This document shows, one piece after another, positions 20,363-29,306 of a stretch of 64,000 nucleotides of DNA; the stretch's first letter is position 1, and each line of letters starts with the position of its first letter. The stretch lies in the NCBI GenBank assembly GCA_017461565.1, contig JAFTXQ010000005.1:1-64000 (forward strand). Direction: 5' to 3'. Position numbers and translations under genes: made by a program. The notes under the pieces are model-generated. The model saw only the letters and a list, made by a program, of their open reading frames with translations. It made no database searches and was not told the origin of the DNA. This stretch comes from Oscillospiraceae bacterium (lineage in GTDB: Bacteria; Bacillota; Clostridia; Oscillospirales; Ruminococcaceae).

Positions 20363-22303
20363 TTATGCCTTAAGCTGATCCACCTGATCCTTCAGCATTC
20401 TGGACTGACCGCTAAGCTCCTCACAGGAGGCCGCAGTCTCCTCTGCGGTTGCGGAATTCTGCTGAACGACATCGGATATCTGTGCGATACCAACAGTAAC
20501 CTGACGCACTGCCTCTGCCTGCTCTGCGGCAGCAGTGTATATCTCTCCTACAAGCTCGTCTGTCTTTTCGGAGTACTCCATAACCGCCTTCATGGTTTCT
20601 GCAGTGTTTTCTGCGATCTGTACACCGTTCGTTACGGCTTCTACCGATGCGGAAATAAGCTCGTTTGTATGGCTTGCAGCCTCGGCAGATTTTGCGGCAA
20701 GGTTTCTTACCTCGTCCGCTACAACAGCAAAGCCCTTGCCTGCATCGCCTGCACGTGCGGCCTCAATTGCGGCATTAAGTGCAAGGATATTTGTCTGGAA
20801 TGCAATATCATCAATGGTCTTGATTATCTCGCTTATCTGTACAGACTTGCTGCGGATCTCTTCCATAGCGGCGAGCATGGTCTCCATCTCCTCGTTCTGC
20901 TCGGAGATCTTTTCACGGCTCTCTGCCGCAAGCTTGTTTGCCTGCTCCGCATTGTCTGCGGTGCTCTGTATCTTGTCGGAGATGCTGTCGATGCTTGAAG
21001 ACAGCTCGTCGATAGCGGTAGCCTGCTTTGTTGTACCCTCAGCAAGGATCTGCGCACCAAAAGCGATCTGGTTGCTGCCAGTCATTACATCATCAGCAGA
21101 AGCATTCATGTTGTTAATAACGCCGTGGAGCGTTGAATTGATCTTTTTGAAAGACTCGCTGATCTCTGTAAAATCGCCGATATATTCAACAGAAGTGGTC
21201 TGAGAGAAGTCGCCATCTGCCATGCTTGCAAGGATGCGTGAAATATCGTTTATGTAGCTGCTGAGATCGTGCTTCGTTTTCTCAAGATTAAGCACGAACC
21301 GTCCGATCTCGTCGTTAGCAAATTTGAAATCGGAATCGGGAACATGAAGATTACCGCTGCTCATATTTTCGGCAAGCTGCTCTGCGATAGAGATAGGCTT
21401 TGCAACGGTCTTTTTGATGACGATAGAAAGAACAAAGCTGACGATCAAAGTCGCAGCCGTAGCTATAGCAACTGCAATTATCACCATCATAAGGAAGCTT
21501 GTATCCTCTTCTTCAGAAGGATAACCTGCAAAGTAAGCGCCCACGATATTTCCATAGATATCATACATAGGCTCATAGTCAACAAAGTGATTGTTGCCGA
21601 GGATATCAGCAGTGCCACAGTAAATATTGCCGCCTTCAATTACTCTTGCTGCAACATTTGCTGCCATCTCCGTACCTACAGCACGTGTGCCATCACTGTT
21701 CTGTACTGTTGTAGCATAGCGTGTAGTGCCGCTGAACAGAGTTACCTCTGCTCCGGACAGTTCTTTGAGAGAATCAAGGTAATCTGTCTCGGTAAGGTTC
21801 ATACCAATGATCGCAACGCCTACTGCGGTATCATACATAATGACGGGAGTGATATACTGCAGCGTAAGACCTGCACCCGAGTCTGCAACGACGCCTATTG
21901 TGTACTGCGTTTCTGATACCGATGCAAAATCAACATCAGTCAGGGCATAATTTTCAGAGTTCCATATAATAGTGCCGTCTTTCTTGGCAAGAACTGCAAA
22001 ATCGGACTCGCCGCCTTTGTGAGCATCCCACTCCAGCGCAATATTGTCAACATTCTTGGTAAGGAGTGTGTTACCTGCTACTCCTGAGGATTCAAAATAA
22101 CGATATATCTCGCCAAGACGGCTTCCCTCGCTGATGATCTCGTTTTTCAGCATTGCAAGCGATACCGCAGATTTATCCTGCACCAGCTTGTCGCTGTGGT
22201 TCTTGGAAAGCAGGATCGTCGAAACGAACACAACTGCAATACTTACAACAAGAAGCAAACATACGATCAATGTCAGCTTTTTCTCGATGCTTTTAAATTT
22301 CAT
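20363..22303 (-). CDS. methyl-accepting chemotaxis receptor (Cache-HAMP-MCP)
   Basis: 646 residues. Membrane segment 1 at about 10-30, extracellular Cache-like sensor about 35-270, segment 2 near 275-300, HAMP linker to about 355, then the signalling coiled coil with hairpin tip around [20 protein letters not shown] and [15 protein letters not shown]. The tip binds CheA and CheW. The Cache fold suggests an organic acid or amino acid ligand. SD AAAGGAGA. No che or flagellar genes are in the window, so this is a solitary receptor. Confidence 0.93.
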
Positions 22304-23085: not shown

Positions 23086-24783
23086 TCAATCGTGATACTT
23101 CAGCCAATCCCTCATGAAAATACCGTTTTCTGAAAGATCGCTGTCCTTCCATCCGCCTGTCGGACTTGCTCCCGGCTTGAGCAACGAAGCTGCCTCTGCC
23201 TTATCACAAAGCGACCAGTTCATATAGCTTATATTCAGGCTGTCAAGCAGCTCCAGCCATTTTTTAGCTTCACCGAAATTGTTTGCGCCATTGCCCGAGG
23301 CGTCGCAGTTTCCGAACTCCGTCACCATGACAGGCAGACCGCTGTTATAGCAGTTTTTCAGCCTGTCACGCAGCCAGTCGGTATGGGTCGCCGCATAATA
23401 ATGCAACGCATACATTACATTATCAAAGTCAAGAGGATCAGCAAGCGCCTTGTCAATATCCTGCGACCATGTGGGAGTGCCGACGATCACTACGCTGTCA
23501 GGATCATTATTACGGATGACAGGAATTATCTCCTCAGCATAAGGTTTAACGTCGCCGCTCCAGGATGCGTAGCCGTTAGGTTCGTTACAGATCTCATAAA
23601 TGACATTGGGATAATCTGCATATTTCTCCGACATGTAATCAAAAAAACGAAGTGCGTCAGTCTTTCTCACCTGCGGCGACTGATCCTGAAGTATATGCCA
23701 GTCCACTATTACATACATATCCAGCTCGATGCAGGCGTCAACGGCGTTCTGCACTGTCTGCTCTATCCCTGTCTTTGTGCTGTCTGTATAGCCCTCGCCT
23801 GCTCCCGTGTACATTGCAAGACGGATCACGTTGATATTCCACTCGTCACGCAGATACTTGAACACCGACTTGTTTGCAAATGCAGGGAACCACTGTATTC
23901 CATGCGTGGATATTCCACGAAGCTGAACAGGAGTGCCGTCAGCGCCTACAAGATCAGTACCCTTGACCGAAAGCTGTCCGCAGTCTGACACAAGTCCGTA
24001 TTTTCCTGTAACCTCGATATCGCTTTCAGCGGGCGGCTTCAGAGTGTCCTGAGGTACTGTTGAGGATGTTCCGCTGTTATTATCATTATTACTGCTATTG
24101 CTGCCACCAACAGAAGTGCTGACCTTTTGCCCGTCGGAAGTTATATCGATATTCTGCACCGCATTATTGGTTTTTAATATGCAGCCAAAGGTGGTCTCAG
24201 CTCCGTTTGCGATCTGTCCGTTATACTCGGCATTGCCGATATGCAGCTGCGAGCCGCTGCTTTCTGCAGCAGAAGCGTTCCATATCTGCATTACCTCGAC
24301 ATCCTGTCCGAGATCAAGGCTCAGCTTCCAGTAACCGATATCGCTGCCCGTGGAGTTATTCACAACAAAGTCGATCTGCGTACACTGCTTGCCGCCGTCC
24401 TCCCAAGAAGAACCGATGGTATAGGATACACTCAGCGATGTGCTCTCCTGCGGATCGTCATTTTCGTCAGGGGTGTCAACAGATACAGCAGGTCCTGAAG
24501 TGGAATCAGTATCACCGGGATGTGCATTTTCACCGACAGGTGCAGATGTGCCCGTATCAGACGTGTCTGCCTGCGTTGAGTCATTATCATCAACAGGAGC
24601 AGAGCTTGTACCGCCGTTATCCTGCGGCGTAGAAGCGCCATTCCCCGATACCGTTGCCGATGATGTAGTCTGAGAGCCGTTCTGTTCCGCACCCGAGTGC
24701 ATCTCGCTGTCGGCGCAGCCAAATGAAGTTATCATCAGCGCTGAAGCCATAAATGCAACCATAATATGTTTCAGTTTTTTCAT
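23086..24783 (-). CDS. GH5 endoglucanase lipoprotein with CBM2-like module
   Basis: 565 residues. Lipoprotein signal ending in TSFGC (Cys23); Ser/Thr/Asp/Gly linker 24-115; CBM2-like cellulose-binding beta-sandwich about 118-215 (VSYTIGSSWEDGGKQC, YWKLSLDLGQ, IWNAS, AEYNGQIANG); a second linker 222-252; GH5 (subfamily 2-like) barrel 262-565 with acid/base Glu401 in IYEICNEPNG and nucleophile Glu489 in VMVTEFGNCD. It should cut beta-1,4-glucan at the cell surface. No dockerin is seen, so attachment is by lipid anchor. Divergent from the GH9 gene, with back-to-back promoters. Confidence 0.93.
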   Translation of the reverse strand: MKKLKHIMVAFMASALMITSFGCADSEMHSGAEQNGSQTTSSATVSGNGASTPQDNGGTSSAPVDDNDSTQADTSDTGTSAPVGENAHPGDTDSTSGPAVSVDTPDENDDPQESTSLSVSYTIGSSWEDGGKQCTQIDFVVNNSTGSDIGYWKLSLDLGQDVEVMQIWNASAAESSGSQLHIGNAEYNGQIANGAETTFGCILKTNNAVQNIDITSDGQKVSTSVGGSNSSNNDNNSGTSSTVPQDTLKPPAESDIEVTGKYGLVSDCGQLSVKGTDLVGADGTPVQLRGISTHGIQWFPAFANKSVFKYLRDEWNINVIRLAMYTGAGEGYTDSTKTGIEQTVQNAVDACIELDMYVIVDWHILQDQSPQVRKTDALRFFDYMSEKYADYPNVIYEICNEPNGYASWSGDVKPYAEEIIPVIRNNDPDSVVIVGTPTWSQDIDKALADPLDFDNVMYALHYYAATHTDWLRDRLKNCYNSGLPVMVTEFGNCDASGNGANNFGEAKKWLELLDSLNISYMNWSLCDKAEAASLLKPGASPTGGWKDSDLSENGIFMRDWLKYHD

Positions 24784-24868: not shown

Positions 24869-24897
24869 TTGACAAACTATTACAGTTAATGTATAAT
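24869..24897 (+). promoter_or_regulatory. promoter of GH9 gene
   Basis: TTGACA (24869-24874), 17-nt spacer, TATAAT (24892-24897): perfect consensus. It also excludes the in-frame ATG at 24889 as the translation start. Confidence 0.85.
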
Positions 24898-24936
24898 CAC
24901 TTTAAGAAAATATTACCAGTAAAACGAGGTATCATT

Positions 24937-26553
24937 ATGTGCAAAAAAAATGTATTCTTAGATCAGGCAGGCTACCTTCCTGAAATGACGAAAAAAGCAG
25001 TAATAACAACAAACGCAAAAAGCTTTGTAATTACAGACGAAAACGGTACGGTCGTATTTAAAGGAAATACGACCGAATTCGGCTACGACGAGGCCTCGGG
25101 CGATACTGTGTACATAGCCGATTTTACCGAGCTTACAAAAGTGGGCAGATACCATATTAGCCTAAACAGCGGTGAAAGCTCCTGTTTATTTGAGATACGA
25201 AACGACATCTATGAGCGATGCTTTGATGATGTGTGCAAGGCTTACTATTACCTGCGGTGCGGCTGCGGTCTCGAAGAAAGATATGCAGGGAAATTCACTC
25301 ATGCACCATGCCATACGGAAAAAGCGCTTCTCTGGGACGACAATAGCATTTTGCTTGATGTTTCAGGCGGATGGCACGACGCAGGCGACTACGGACGATA
25401 CTCCACTGCGGCAGCGTGCGCATTGGGGCATCTGCTGTATGCATATAAGTTCTATCCCGACGTCTTCCAAAAGCAGAAGCTCAGCATTCCCGAGAGCGGC
25501 GATGCGCTTCCCGATATGCTTGCTGAATGTAAGGTCGAACTTGAATGGCTTATGAAAATGCAGCGTGAGGACGGCGCAGTTTATCACAAGGCAACTACTG
25601 CACACCATGCGCCTTTCGTTATGCCGGAAGATGATACAGCTCAGATGTTCCTACTGCCGCCATCATCAATGGCGACTGCTGACGCTGCCGCAGTATTTGC
25701 ACTGGCAAGCGGTATATTCCGTGAATTTGACTGCGACTTTGCAGACAAGCTTCTTACCGCTTCGCTGAAGAGCTTCGGATGGCTTGAGCATAATCCAGGT
25801 TTTCTCTTTGAGCATAGTGACGGCTGCACCACGGGAGGCTATGGCGAGATGAGAGACACTGACAACCGCTTCTGGGCAGCGGCCGAGCTTTATTCAGTCA
25901 CTGGTCAAACAAGATTCCGTGATATGCTGGAATCCCTAGTAAAGGAGGATATAAACCTCACAGCGCTTGGGTATGCAGATATTGCAGGATTGGGTGCGCT
26001 TTCATACATAATGTGTACAGATGAAAACGATGCGCTACGGCGCACTTTTATTAGCAATTTTATCCGTAACGCCGAAGCATTGGCGGCTATCAGTGACAAA
26101 TGCGGCTACGGCGCAGCCCTTACTCCCGACATGAGAGGCTATCACTGGGGAAGTAATATGACGCTGCTGAAAAACGGCATGATATTCCTTATTGCAGACA
26201 GGTTTGAAGGCAAAAACAGATTTGAAGGCTATGCTGCGGCTCAGTTACATTATCTTCTCGGCTGCAATGCGCTTGGCTTCAGCTATGTCAGCGGCACGGG
26301 CGAGCACAGTATACAGCATCCGCATCTCAGACCAACCTCTGCCGACGGCATCGACGAATGTATCCCAGGCATGGTCAGCGGCGGCCCTAATGGTCGTCCG
26401 TCGGATGAGGACGCAAGAAGGCTCATTCCCGAAGGAACGCCGCCAATGAAATGCTTCGCCGACGATGAACTGTGCTATTCCCTCAATGAAATAACGATAT
26501 ACTGGAACTCCCCTGCGGTCTTTGTTCTTGCACATTTTAACAGAGAAAAATGA
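24937..26553 (+). CDS. GH9 cellulase/cellodextrinase without signal peptide
   Basis: 538 residues. Start at 24937, with GAGG 8 nt upstream and downstream of the promoter. Residues 1-88 form the Ig-like CelD N-terminal domain (FLDQAGYLPEMTKKAVIT). The (alpha/alpha)6 barrel follows: catalytic Asp148 and Asp151 in GGWHDAGDYGRYS, SGTGEHSIQHPHLRPTSADG around the His motif, and acid Glu518 in YSLNEITIYWNSP. There is no signal peptide, CBM or dockerin, so it is predicted cytoplasmic and likely degrades imported cellodextrins, as described for intracellular GH9 enzymes of rumen bacteria. Pairs functionally with the surface GH5. Confidence 0.92.
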   Translation: MCKKNVFLDQAGYLPEMTKKAVITTNAKSFVITDENGTVVFKGNTTEFGYDEASGDTVYIADFTELTKVGRYHISLNSGESSCLFEIRNDIYERCFDDVCKAYYYLRCGCGLEERYAGKFTHAPCHTEKALLWDDNSILLDVSGGWHDAGDYGRYSTAAACALGHLLYAYKFYPDVFQKQKLSIPESGDALPDMLAECKVELEWLMKMQREDGAVYHKATTAHHAPFVMPEDDTAQMFLLPPSSMATADAAAVFALASGIFREFDCDFADKLLTASLKSFGWLEHNPGFLFEHSDGCTTGGYGEMRDTDNRFWAAAELYSVTGQTRFRDMLESLVKEDINLTALGYADIAGLGALSYIMCTDENDALRRTFISNFIRNAEALAAISDKCGYGAALTPDMRGYHWGSNMTLLKNGMIFLIADRFEGKNRFEGYAAAQLHYLLGCNALGFSYVSGTGEHSIQHPHLRPTSADGIDECIPGMVSGGPNGRPSDEDARRLIPEGTPPMKCFADDELCYSLNEITIYWNSPAVFVLAHFNREK

Positions 26554-26619: not shown

Positions 26620-26649
26620 TTGACAGCTGTCGCATTTATAATTTATAAT
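26620..26649 (+). promoter_or_regulatory. promoter of EAL-beta-helix gene
   Basis: TTGACA (26620-26625), 18-nt spacer, TATAAT (26644-26649), 34 bp before the start. Confidence 0.7.
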
Positions 26650-26682: not shown

Positions 26683-29262
26683 TTGTTGTACTCATCGACA
26701 TGGAACAAAATATTCGGCACTGCTCTGGATAAACTTACAGCGCATTGCACTGATCTCGGTGCCTTTATGCTGGATAACAAAGAAAAGTCCGTAGAAATTG
26801 ACAAAAACGGTCTCAGGCTTCTTGGACTTCGCTCAGTCCCAGCATACAGCGAGCTTTTCGAGATCATAACACAGGCGTCCGACAAGGAGCACGACAGCAC
26901 CGCTGAGATAATAATTGCCGAACAAAACGATGACGTCACCGCAGGCTTTATACATCTCCACAACGCATATCAGGCGGAATATGACGAAAATCTGCCCGTA
27001 TATTCTTACACACAATTTGTTTCCGCAGTGACACAGAGCGCCAAGGACAGCCTGCTTGCACTTTTACAGCTGGAGGAATACGGAAACCCCGACCTCATCG
27101 GCATCGACATTTCCACAGCGCTTACTGCCATTATCGCAGGATGCCCGCACGGCTCTATACTTTCCGCATCTGCCAAAAACCGTTTCTGGCTGTATATACC
27201 CGATTTCACAGGCGATAAGATCGTTTTCCTTGAGCGTCTGCAAAAATCGGTAAGAGAATATGTCCTCAAAAACTGCACGGGTACTCCTCATAACATAACG
27301 TTTTCCGCAGGCTGCGGTGCGGATGTGCCTCTCCCCTCTCAGCGTATGCAGACAGCGGAATTTACACTGTTCGACTCTGCCGCATCGGGAATGGGAACTG
27401 TGCGCATATACTCTGACGAGCGCTACGAGCAGCAAAAGGCTGAATACGAAAATATGCGCCGATTCACAAGGCTTGTAGACGGCAACATGTTCAAATACCA
27501 CTTCCAGCCTATCGTCAGTGCACGCAACGGCGACATAGTTGCTTATGAGGCACTGATGCGTACAGACAGCAGTATCGGCATGAATCCGCTTGAAGTCCTT
27601 GGCGCTGCTACAAAGCTCGGCAGGCTGTACGATATTGAAAAAGCCACCATGCAGAATGCGATGGCTTATATCAGCGCACATCAGGAGGAATTTGCAGGCC
27701 GAAAGCTTTTTGTGAACTCGATACCTGCGCATATACTCTCATATTCCGACTGGGATATGCTGGTGCAGAACTACGGTGAGCTTTTGCAGACTCTTGTAAT
27801 TGAAATGACTGAGCAGACGGAGCTTGACGACGACCGCCTTGCAATAATCCATGACCGTCTCAGGCGCAACGGCATACAGCTCGCAATCGACGACTACGGC
27901 ACAGGCTATTCAAACGCAGCAAATCTGCTTCGATATACGCCAAATTATGTTAAGATCGACCGCTCTCTTATTGACGGAATAAACGCAAATCCCAAGGTAC
28001 AGAAATTTGTATCGGGAATAATCGAATTTATCCACGAAAACGGCTACTCTGCCCTCGCCGAGGGTGTAGAAACCCGTGAAGAGCTTAACACCATGATACA
28101 GCTCGGCGCTGATCTTATCCAGGGATACTATATATCAAAGCCTAAGCCGTTCACGCTTCATCAGATCACACAGGAGCTTAAGGATGAGATAGTCACATTC
28201 AACCTTATCTTCTCCGAAAACATGGCTAAGGTGTATCATCCCGAAGAGGGCGAGACTGTTGATCTCTTGCGTATCGCTTCAGAACGATACGGTTCGGTTT
28301 TCATCGAGACCGAAAACGTGACGATTGAAGGCGTCAAGGACTCCGCAGTCACCTGTCCTATTATCATCAAAGACGGCATCAAGACGAATATAACGCTCAG
28401 GAACGCTTCGCTTCTGACTGAAAAGGACGGTCCTGTTATCACCGTGGGTGTAGGTGCTGACGCTGTGATAAACCTTGAAGGCGACAATCAGGTGTTCAAC
28501 CGTGGAATATGGGTGCCGCAAACAGCGTCTATAAAGCTTATCGGCGGCGGCTCACTTCACGTGCACTGCGAGCTTCTTAACAGCTATGGTATCGGTGTCG
28601 ACAAGGATAACAGCCCAGGCAATATCGTGATAGAGTGCAGCGGAAAGGTACGTGTTGACTCCAACGGCGAAAACTCGATAGCAATAGGCGGAGGAAAAAA
28701 TACAGGCGGCACAGCTATCCGCATACTAAGCGGCGATATCGAGATACACAGCTCAGGCGGAAACTGCGTCGGCATAGGCAATTTTGAAGGCGGCAGCGTT
28801 ATCGACCTTCTCTCGGCTAACTGTGCAATCGAGCTTTCTGCTTCCAACATAGTCGGAATAGGCTCTTTTTCAGGAAACACCGACATTTGCATCGAGAACT
28901 ACTCCCTTAATATAGAAGAATCAGGTGTAAATCTATGCGGAATAGGCGTCCTCAATGAAGGCAGCGGTAATATTTTCATCTCCAGCGGCGGCATGAGCGC
29001 AGATATGCACGGTCGTGCCATCATCTGCACGGGCACAGACAAGGGTAGTCTTGACTGCACGATACGCTCATCAAGGCTCTCATATTACTGCGAGGGCGGT
29101 ACTGTCTGCGGCATAGGAGACATGAGCGGAAGCGGCGACGTCACCTTGCAGAACTGCGGCATAGACATGACCTTCCTTTGTAAGGACGGACAAGGTATCA
29201 GTAGCAAAAAAGGCTCTTTCAATACAGAAAATGTGGCACAAAGTATAAAGATCAACGAATAA
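26683..29262 (+). CDS. EAL-domain c-di-GMP phosphodiesterase fused to a repeat beta-helix domain
   Basis: 859 residues from a TTG start (26683 or 26686; AAAGAG upstream, no better ATG). No signal peptide or membrane segment. Residues 1-250: regulatory region, perhaps a degenerate GGDEF-like domain. EAL domain about 262-500 with the expected catalytic set: Glu289 (YEALMR), Asn345, Glu374 (VIEMTEQ), Asp403-Asp404 (IDDYGTGYS), Lys424 (YVKIDRSLI), Glu460/Glu463 (AEGVET) and Gln480. It should hydrolyse c-di-GMP to pGpG. From about 540 to 850 is beta-rich sequence with GIG-type turns at 636, 667, 697, 725, 753, 782, 810 and about 836, a repeat of 28-31 residues that resembles a right-handed beta-helix. 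I know of no standard domain pairing like this. Monocistronic. Confidence 0.85.
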   Translation: MLYSSTWNKIFGTALDKLTAHCTDLGAFMLDNKEKSVEIDKNGLRLLGLRSVPAYSELFEIITQASDKEHDSTAEIIIAEQNDDVTAGFIHLHNAYQAEYDENLPVYSYTQFVSAVTQSAKDSLLALLQLEEYGNPDLIGIDISTALTAIIAGCPHGSILSASAKNRFWLYIPDFTGDKIVFLERLQKSVREYVLKNCTGTPHNITFSAGCGADVPLPSQRMQTAEFTLFDSAASGMGTVRIYSDERYEQQKAEYENMRRFTRLVDGNMFKYHFQPIVSARNGDIVAYEALMRTDSSIGMNPLEVLGAATKLGRLYDIEKATMQNAMAYISAHQEEFAGRKLFVNSIPAHILSYSDWDMLVQNYGELLQTLVIEMTEQTELDDDRLAIIHDRLRRNGIQLAIDDYGTGYSNAANLLRYTPNYVKIDRSLIDGINANPKVQKFVSGIIEFIHENGYSALAEGVETREELNTMIQLGADLIQGYYISKPKPFTLHQITQELKDEIVTFNLIFSENMAKVYHPEEGETVDLLRIASERYGSVFIETENVTIEGVKDSAVTCPIIIKDGIKTNITLRNASLLTEKDGPVITVGVGADAVINLEGDNQVFNRGIWVPQTASIKLIGGGSLHVHCELLNSYGIGVDKDNSPGNIVIECSGKVRVDSNGENSIAIGGGKNTGGTAIRILSGDIEIHSSGGNCVGIGNFEGGSVIDLLSANCAIELSASNIVGIGSFSGNTDICIENYSLNIEESGVNLCGIGVLNEGSGNIFISSGGMSADMHGRAIICTGTDKGSLDCTIRSSRLSYYCEGGTVCGIGDMSGSGDVTLQNCGIDMTFLCKDGQGISSKKGSFNTENVAQSIKINE

Positions 29263-29306
29263 AAACATCACCCTGAACATTCTTCCTCGGTTCAGGGTGA
29301 TGTTTT
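29262..29306. terminator. bidirectional terminator
   Basis: Seventeen-base-pair arms (aaaacatcaccctgaac / gttcagggtgatgtttt) with T-runs in both directions, between convergent EAL and DUF3006 genes. Confidence 0.9.

Follow-up and report, generated by a model that had tools for sequence, protein, structure and literature searches.

What could a long, repetitive tail contribute to an apparently cytoplasmic enzyme of c-di-GMP breakdown? The question is raised by an 859-residue protein encoded in a 64,000-nucleotide stretch of an Oscillospiraceae bacterium genome (contig JAFTXQ010000005.1; hereafter "the window"), in which a degenerate GGDEF domain and an EAL domain are followed by a predicted beta-solenoid. 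The features of the locus are:

23086-24783, minus strand: neighboring GH5 gene with CBM2 and a hydrophobic, lipoprotein-like N-terminus
24889-26553, plus strand: neighboring GH9 gene, no signal peptide seen
26620-26649, plus strand: promoter-like site TTGACA-18-TATAAT, 12/12 (consensus scan)
26683-29262, plus strand: complete gene for a degenerate GGDEF-EAL-beta-solenoid protein of 859 aa, starting at TTG
26974-27393, plus strand: degenerate GGDEF-like domain, about residues 98-237 (profile-profile comparison)
27460-28143, plus strand: EAL domain PF00563, residues 260-487 (Pfam E 4.2e-54)
28300-29259, plus strand: predicted beta-solenoid, about residues 540-859, in some eight rungs of 28-31 residues (periodicity, family alignment, weak model)
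29263-29305, plus strand: terminator-like hairpin of 16 pairs, then a T run (-24.6 kcal/mol, z -7.5)

The gene, its domains, and the repeat

The EAL-solenoid gene is probably transcribed alone, because the single 12/12 site among 4 promoter-like sites in the region (4.0 are expected from shuffles) lies ahead of it, and a strong hairpin with a T run comes right after its stop codon. The loop of that hairpin, at 11, is above the limit of 8 in the consensus scan, which hence did not list it. The TTG start is supported by same-genus relatives of the same type: alignment begins at residue 3-6 in seven of eight, the eighth being a partial gene.

Is the EAL domain likely to be functional? It was the sole domain found in a Pfam scan of the window protein, which gave no GGDEF match, and it scored 183.8 bits against a gathering score of 31.3. 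The first-pass annotation had stated that the expected catalytic residues are retained, and all nine residues that we take to be the catalytic set (E289, N345, E374, D403, D404, K424, E460, E463, and Q480) are in place; the set is also complete in all 38 solenoid-bearing proteins compared, the window's counted. The window protein shares the PF00563 match and these nine residues with EAL phosphodiesterases such as Lmo0131 (PDB 4q6j), BlrP1 (3gfx), and FimX but differs from them by its C-terminal beta-solenoid. Judged by its full catalytic set, the enzyme is probably an ordinary, active phosphodiesterase whose EAL domain would hydrolyze c-di-GMP. Ahead of it, a GGDEF-like domain emerged when 13 N-termini were compared with seven GGDEF domains encoded in the same genome (profile-profile probability 87.7, E 3.4e-6). 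The GG(D/E)EF motif is absent and its place is occupied by AKNRF (164-168); by motif, this domain would be unable to make c-di-GMP, and it most likely regulates the EAL domain. A degenerate GGDEF ahead of an EAL is a known arrangement, and the control domains of known c-di-GMP enzymes are mostly N-terminal.

By hydropathy, the window protein has neither a signal peptide nor a membrane segment (maximum KD19 1.41), as had been claimed from the first reading. A hydrophobic N-terminus, with a strong segment within the first 100 residues, occurs in seven relatives, one of which (L069) shows an intermediate hydropathy value further along.

The part behind the EAL domain had been described as a solenoid of 28-31-residue repeats at about residues 540-859, and this period is borne out. 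Self-similarity of the tail peaks at lag 28 (z 5.15, against a top value at any lag of 4.42 in 1000 shuffles), while the protein's own EAL domain has no such peak (2.42). Glycines 638, 669, 699, 727, 755, 784, and 812, which belong to those conserved in 85% or more of 40 family members, are spaced by 31, 30, 28, 28, 29, and 28 residues. The earlier list of eight GIG-type turns is right for GIG at 636, 697, 725, 753, and 810 and CTG at 782, but 667 is AIG, and no turn of this pattern was found near 836. Structure prediction, which had been proposed as a check on the solenoid, gave weak single-sequence AlphaFold models (pLDDT 53, and 46 for a shorter construct); the former resembles right-handed beta-helices, and a Foldseek search returned no match at E 0.001 or better. 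The tail is a candidate right-handed parallel beta-helix.

Distribution and ancestry of the tail

Does the tail correspond to a domain already named? A known C-terminal domain was considered and rejected, with no Pfam or NCBIfam match in the window tail; NCBIfam matches to the window protein were to EAL-bearing families only, each below cut-off and reaching residue 499 at most. A Pfam scan of the 40 family members returned 21 families, one member each, and a PDB sequence search with the window tail gave no match. The first-pass annotation would have taken a match to a known domain commonly joined to EAL as a refutation: no named domain matched, but the joining itself is common. In 197 genomes of the same family, the tail query matched 35 (the window's own counted), and an EAL domain lies directly ahead of the tail in 41 of 46 match rows. 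Of the other five rows, one is a further piece of an open reading frame that was in the count before, L061 and L070 are genes truncated by the end of a contig (the end of an EAL is still present in L061), one is a short fragment, and one is the secreted-looking L060. The tail is a real, recurrent accessory domain that is unnamed in the Pfam and NCBIfam libraries searched. Literature listings contained no recognizable paper on an EAL-solenoid fusion; papers with both "EAL domain" and "parallel beta-helix" mention the two apart in the portions available, and full-text searches joining c-di-GMP with Ruminococcus and EAL or GGDEF found little.

Beyond the family, 20 of 391 genomes matched at class level, and all 14 strong matches besides the window, which fall in families f1, f31, and f46, have an EAL ahead of the tail; at phylum level 7 of 398 genomes matched, the strong ones being confined to f1 and f31. 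Within the window's genus the tail is found in 18 of 43 genomes, half of which (nine) have a protein of the window's type and half another type. A scan of named-genome contigs yielded a single locus, L031, whose EAL protein lacks the tail, and scans of viral contigs and plasmids gave none.

In the 19 proteins scanned, the tail is constant while the N-terminal modules vary. The architectures seen in the family were EAL-tail (about 700 aa), degenerate or weak GGDEF-EAL-tail (about 860-950 aa), hydrophobic N-terminus-GGDEF-EAL-tail (about 1010-1030 aa), and a sugar-binding-protein-like domain, with or without GGDEF, followed by EAL-tail (about 1110-1310 aa). The tail thus appears to have been retained by one EAL lineage through swaps of its N-terminal modules.

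How often was the tail gained? The window EAL matched 60 rows at E 1e-40 or better; the tail is present in 41 of them and missing from 19. Fourteen of these 19 are more distant (34-41% identity), and a profile search too found no tail there; the other five are close (46-52% identity, 893-918 aa; C-terminus inspected in three), which means that certain close kin can do without the tail. A tree of 51 EAL rows, drawn from a midpoint root, contains a set of 42 (support 99/98), with some long branches outside it; the set comprises all 38 tail-bearing proteins and four tail-less ones, which nest inside, beside a tail-bearing protein of the same build. This topology would fit one old gain of the tail followed by later loss. 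One of the four nested rows is a paralogue in the window genome (L109, G000:C8:34532-35227), a 918-aa frame with a sugar-binding-like part, a GGDEF, and an EAL, which stops right behind the EAL, where the tail would start.

Where might such a tail have come from? The family profile matches other proteins more weakly, including a secreted-looking one in the window genome (L097, G000:C9:180075-180539), a 1446-aa open frame that begins like a signal peptide and contains homologous GIG modules. Seven secreted GIG beta-helix modules were compared with the tail over 329 columns (profile-profile probability 99.1, E 4.4e-19), and by this measure the EAL-linked tail shares ancestry with them. The window protein differs from these modules in having no export signal, in being Cys-rich, and in lacking a match to PF18889 (Beta_helix_3), which is above cut-off in three of five secreted modules scanned, as well as in L060, and in 0 of 40 EAL-linked members. 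In the PDB, the best sequence match of the family profile was 4peu, at an E of 0.024 that is not significant, and no stretch of the match was significant by itself. We take 4peu and 4phb to be Cthe_2159, a carbohydrate-binding beta-helix (PF14262); neither the window protein nor the 40 members gave a Pfam match to PF14262. PMC6712302 describes Cthe_2159 as binding cellulosic and pectic substrates.

Genes around the EAL-solenoid loci

Do neighboring genes hint at what the protein responds to? The first-pass annotation had placed the gene next to a cellulase pair; the GH9 and GH5 genes do adjoin it, but the pair is not common to the wider family, as five glycoside hydrolase queries against 39 loci outside the genus found one match, which was the source gene of one query. 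Within the window's genus, a glycoside hydrolase lies at most two genes away in six of seven checkable loci of the same type: GH9 and GH5 in the window and in L175 (its neighbors assigned by BLAST to window genes only), GH5 in L174, GH94 in L176, GH2 in L178, and GH5 with GH2 in L180. None was found in L177. These counts refer to the window's protein type, with nine genomes of other types left out, and L179 (too short) and L172 (short contig) stand outside the seven. By rough export calls based on hydropathy and start choice, the GH9, GH94, and GH2 proteins have no clear signal peptide, and a hydrophobic segment is present at the N-terminus of the GH5 proteins. Because no signal peptide is visible, the GH9 of the window is possibly a cytosolic oligosaccharide enzyme.

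Across five loci (L174, L176, L177, L178, and L180), Pfam applied to genes of at least 200 aa found them in 5 of 15 genes within two genes vs. 0 of 25 farther away, with a 249-aa near gene of L178 and several far genes left out and a one-sided p of 0.005 that ignores kinship, the species being related and the loci therefore not independent. One far gene in this count is a putative esterase. The five-query count gave 9 of 166 near genes vs. 1 of 318 farther genes, a comparison biased by queries that came from genes in or beside the loci counted. Since glycoside hydrolases neighbor six of the seven same-type loci, a link to oligosaccharide use is plausible in the window's genus, where, judging from the neighbors, the gene would probably serve a response to plant-polysaccharide oligomers.

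Outside the genus, a GH3 gene lies three genes off in L033, and a CE2 esterase gene adjoins in L036. The adjoining gene is a GGDEF, EAL, or sugar-binding-like gene in 8 of 40 loci (L034, L038, L039, L042, L052, L053, L054, and L056); four of these carry a sugar-binding-like GGDEF neighbor (L038, L039, L042, and L056, by queries cut from the L038 gene), which in L039 overlaps by four bases. Besides the GGDEF/EAL group, every gene family recurred in at most 4 of the clustered loci. An 867-aa EAL protein is encoded directly downstream of the EAL-solenoid gene in L054 (L054:2158-4761) and forms a long branch outside the solenoid set of the EAL tree. The window also encodes a chemoreceptor with sCache_3_3 (20363-22303), and an sCache_3_3-GGDEF gene directly adjoins the EAL-solenoid gene in L176.

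Possible roles of the solenoid

What, then, might the solenoid do? We favor, at a shade under an even chance, a cytoplasmic c-di-GMP phosphodiesterase with a regulatory degenerate GGDEF, whose solenoid would be a rigid scaffold governing either how the EAL domain oligomerizes or where it docks in the cell. A scaffold is preferred to a glycan sensor because the kept tail columns are nearly all glycine or aliphatic: 28 of 355 columns are kept at 85%, namely 19 G, 5 I, and one each of V, P, Y, and N, while the EAL of the same proteins retains 7 E and 4 D columns at that level. A constant tail behind changing N-terminal modules likewise suggests that it serves the EAL itself, for assembly or docking. 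Bactofilins and other cytoplasmic beta-helix scaffolds resemble it in the scaffold idea only, with no bactofilin Pfam match in the window or the 40 members. If the tail controls assembly or activity, it would represent a new control mode for phosphodiesterases.

A more doubtful alternative makes the solenoid a sensor, which would bind an imported oligosaccharide or intracellular glycan and switch the phosphodiesterase, so that sugar supply would control c-di-GMP. The first-pass annotation had suggested an intracellular polymer or glycan sensor, or a scaffold; an intracellular repeat attached to an EAL domain that looks active is supported, but sensing fares less well. No D, E, K, R, H, or Trp column reaches 85% in the tail across the 40 members (two E columns reach 70%), which makes a glycan site common to the entire family unlikely. 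The low aromatic content (Trp 0.04%, W+Y+F 4.66%) weighs little, as secreted modules are low too (5.59%). A further point against sensing is that the tail is mostly retained even where the protein has a sugar-binding-like domain of its own, though such proteins also occur among the five close tail-less relatives. Sensing is nevertheless favored by the tail's kinship with secreted beta-helix modules, a class that often deals with glycans, and by the hydrolases beside the genus loci, three types of which lack a clear signal peptide. Sugar-binding-like domains also speak for it: they occur in adjoining GGDEF genes and within the chain in other relatives. Several polar tail residues are, moreover, invariant among five close orthologues and may mark a subgroup-specific binding surface. 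A polysaccharide lyase or GH28-type enzyme was also considered and rejected: with no acidic, basic, or Trp column kept at 85%, the marks of a lyase or hydrolase are missing.

It is similarly conceivable, though we lean against it, that an EAL enzyme on one occasion captured a beta-helix of the surface type, possibly one that binds glycans, which now serves as an intracellular oligosaccharide sensor or a self-stacking filament controlling c-di-GMP breakdown; if true, this would couple digestion to attachment or motility in fibre-degrading Clostridia.

Cysteine makes up 3.04% of the tail vs. 0.21% of the seven secreted homologues, which fits a reducing cytosol. It is phase-locked to the rungs, at about 15% at each of four phases, 7.9% at a fifth, and 0-3% elsewhere, and such ladders could allow the solenoid to sense redox state or metals on behalf of the phosphodiesterase. 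We consider this improbable, as no cysteine is invariant (the commonest column has C in 28 of 40 rows and A in the window) and small core-facing positions may merely tolerate cysteine in the cytosol. An inert solenoid, acquired a single time and then maintained by drift, would agree with close relatives that keep the EAL without a tail; this reading is quite improbable given that glycines and register are held at 22-45% identity within the family and that the tail occurs in two further families. Export of the protein, with the solenoid acting outside like its secreted relatives, among them L097 in the window genome itself, is extremely improbable for a Cys-rich protein with no signal peptide by hydropathy and an EAL domain whose substrate is cytosolic.

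The window genome (92.8% complete) contains ten EAL, sixteen GGDEF (fifteen over cut-off), and one PilZ match, and the tail is present on just one of its EAL domains, that of the window protein. The PilZ protein lies together with a pair of GGDEF proteins (G000:C16:88609-94832), one of which includes a sugar-binding-like part.
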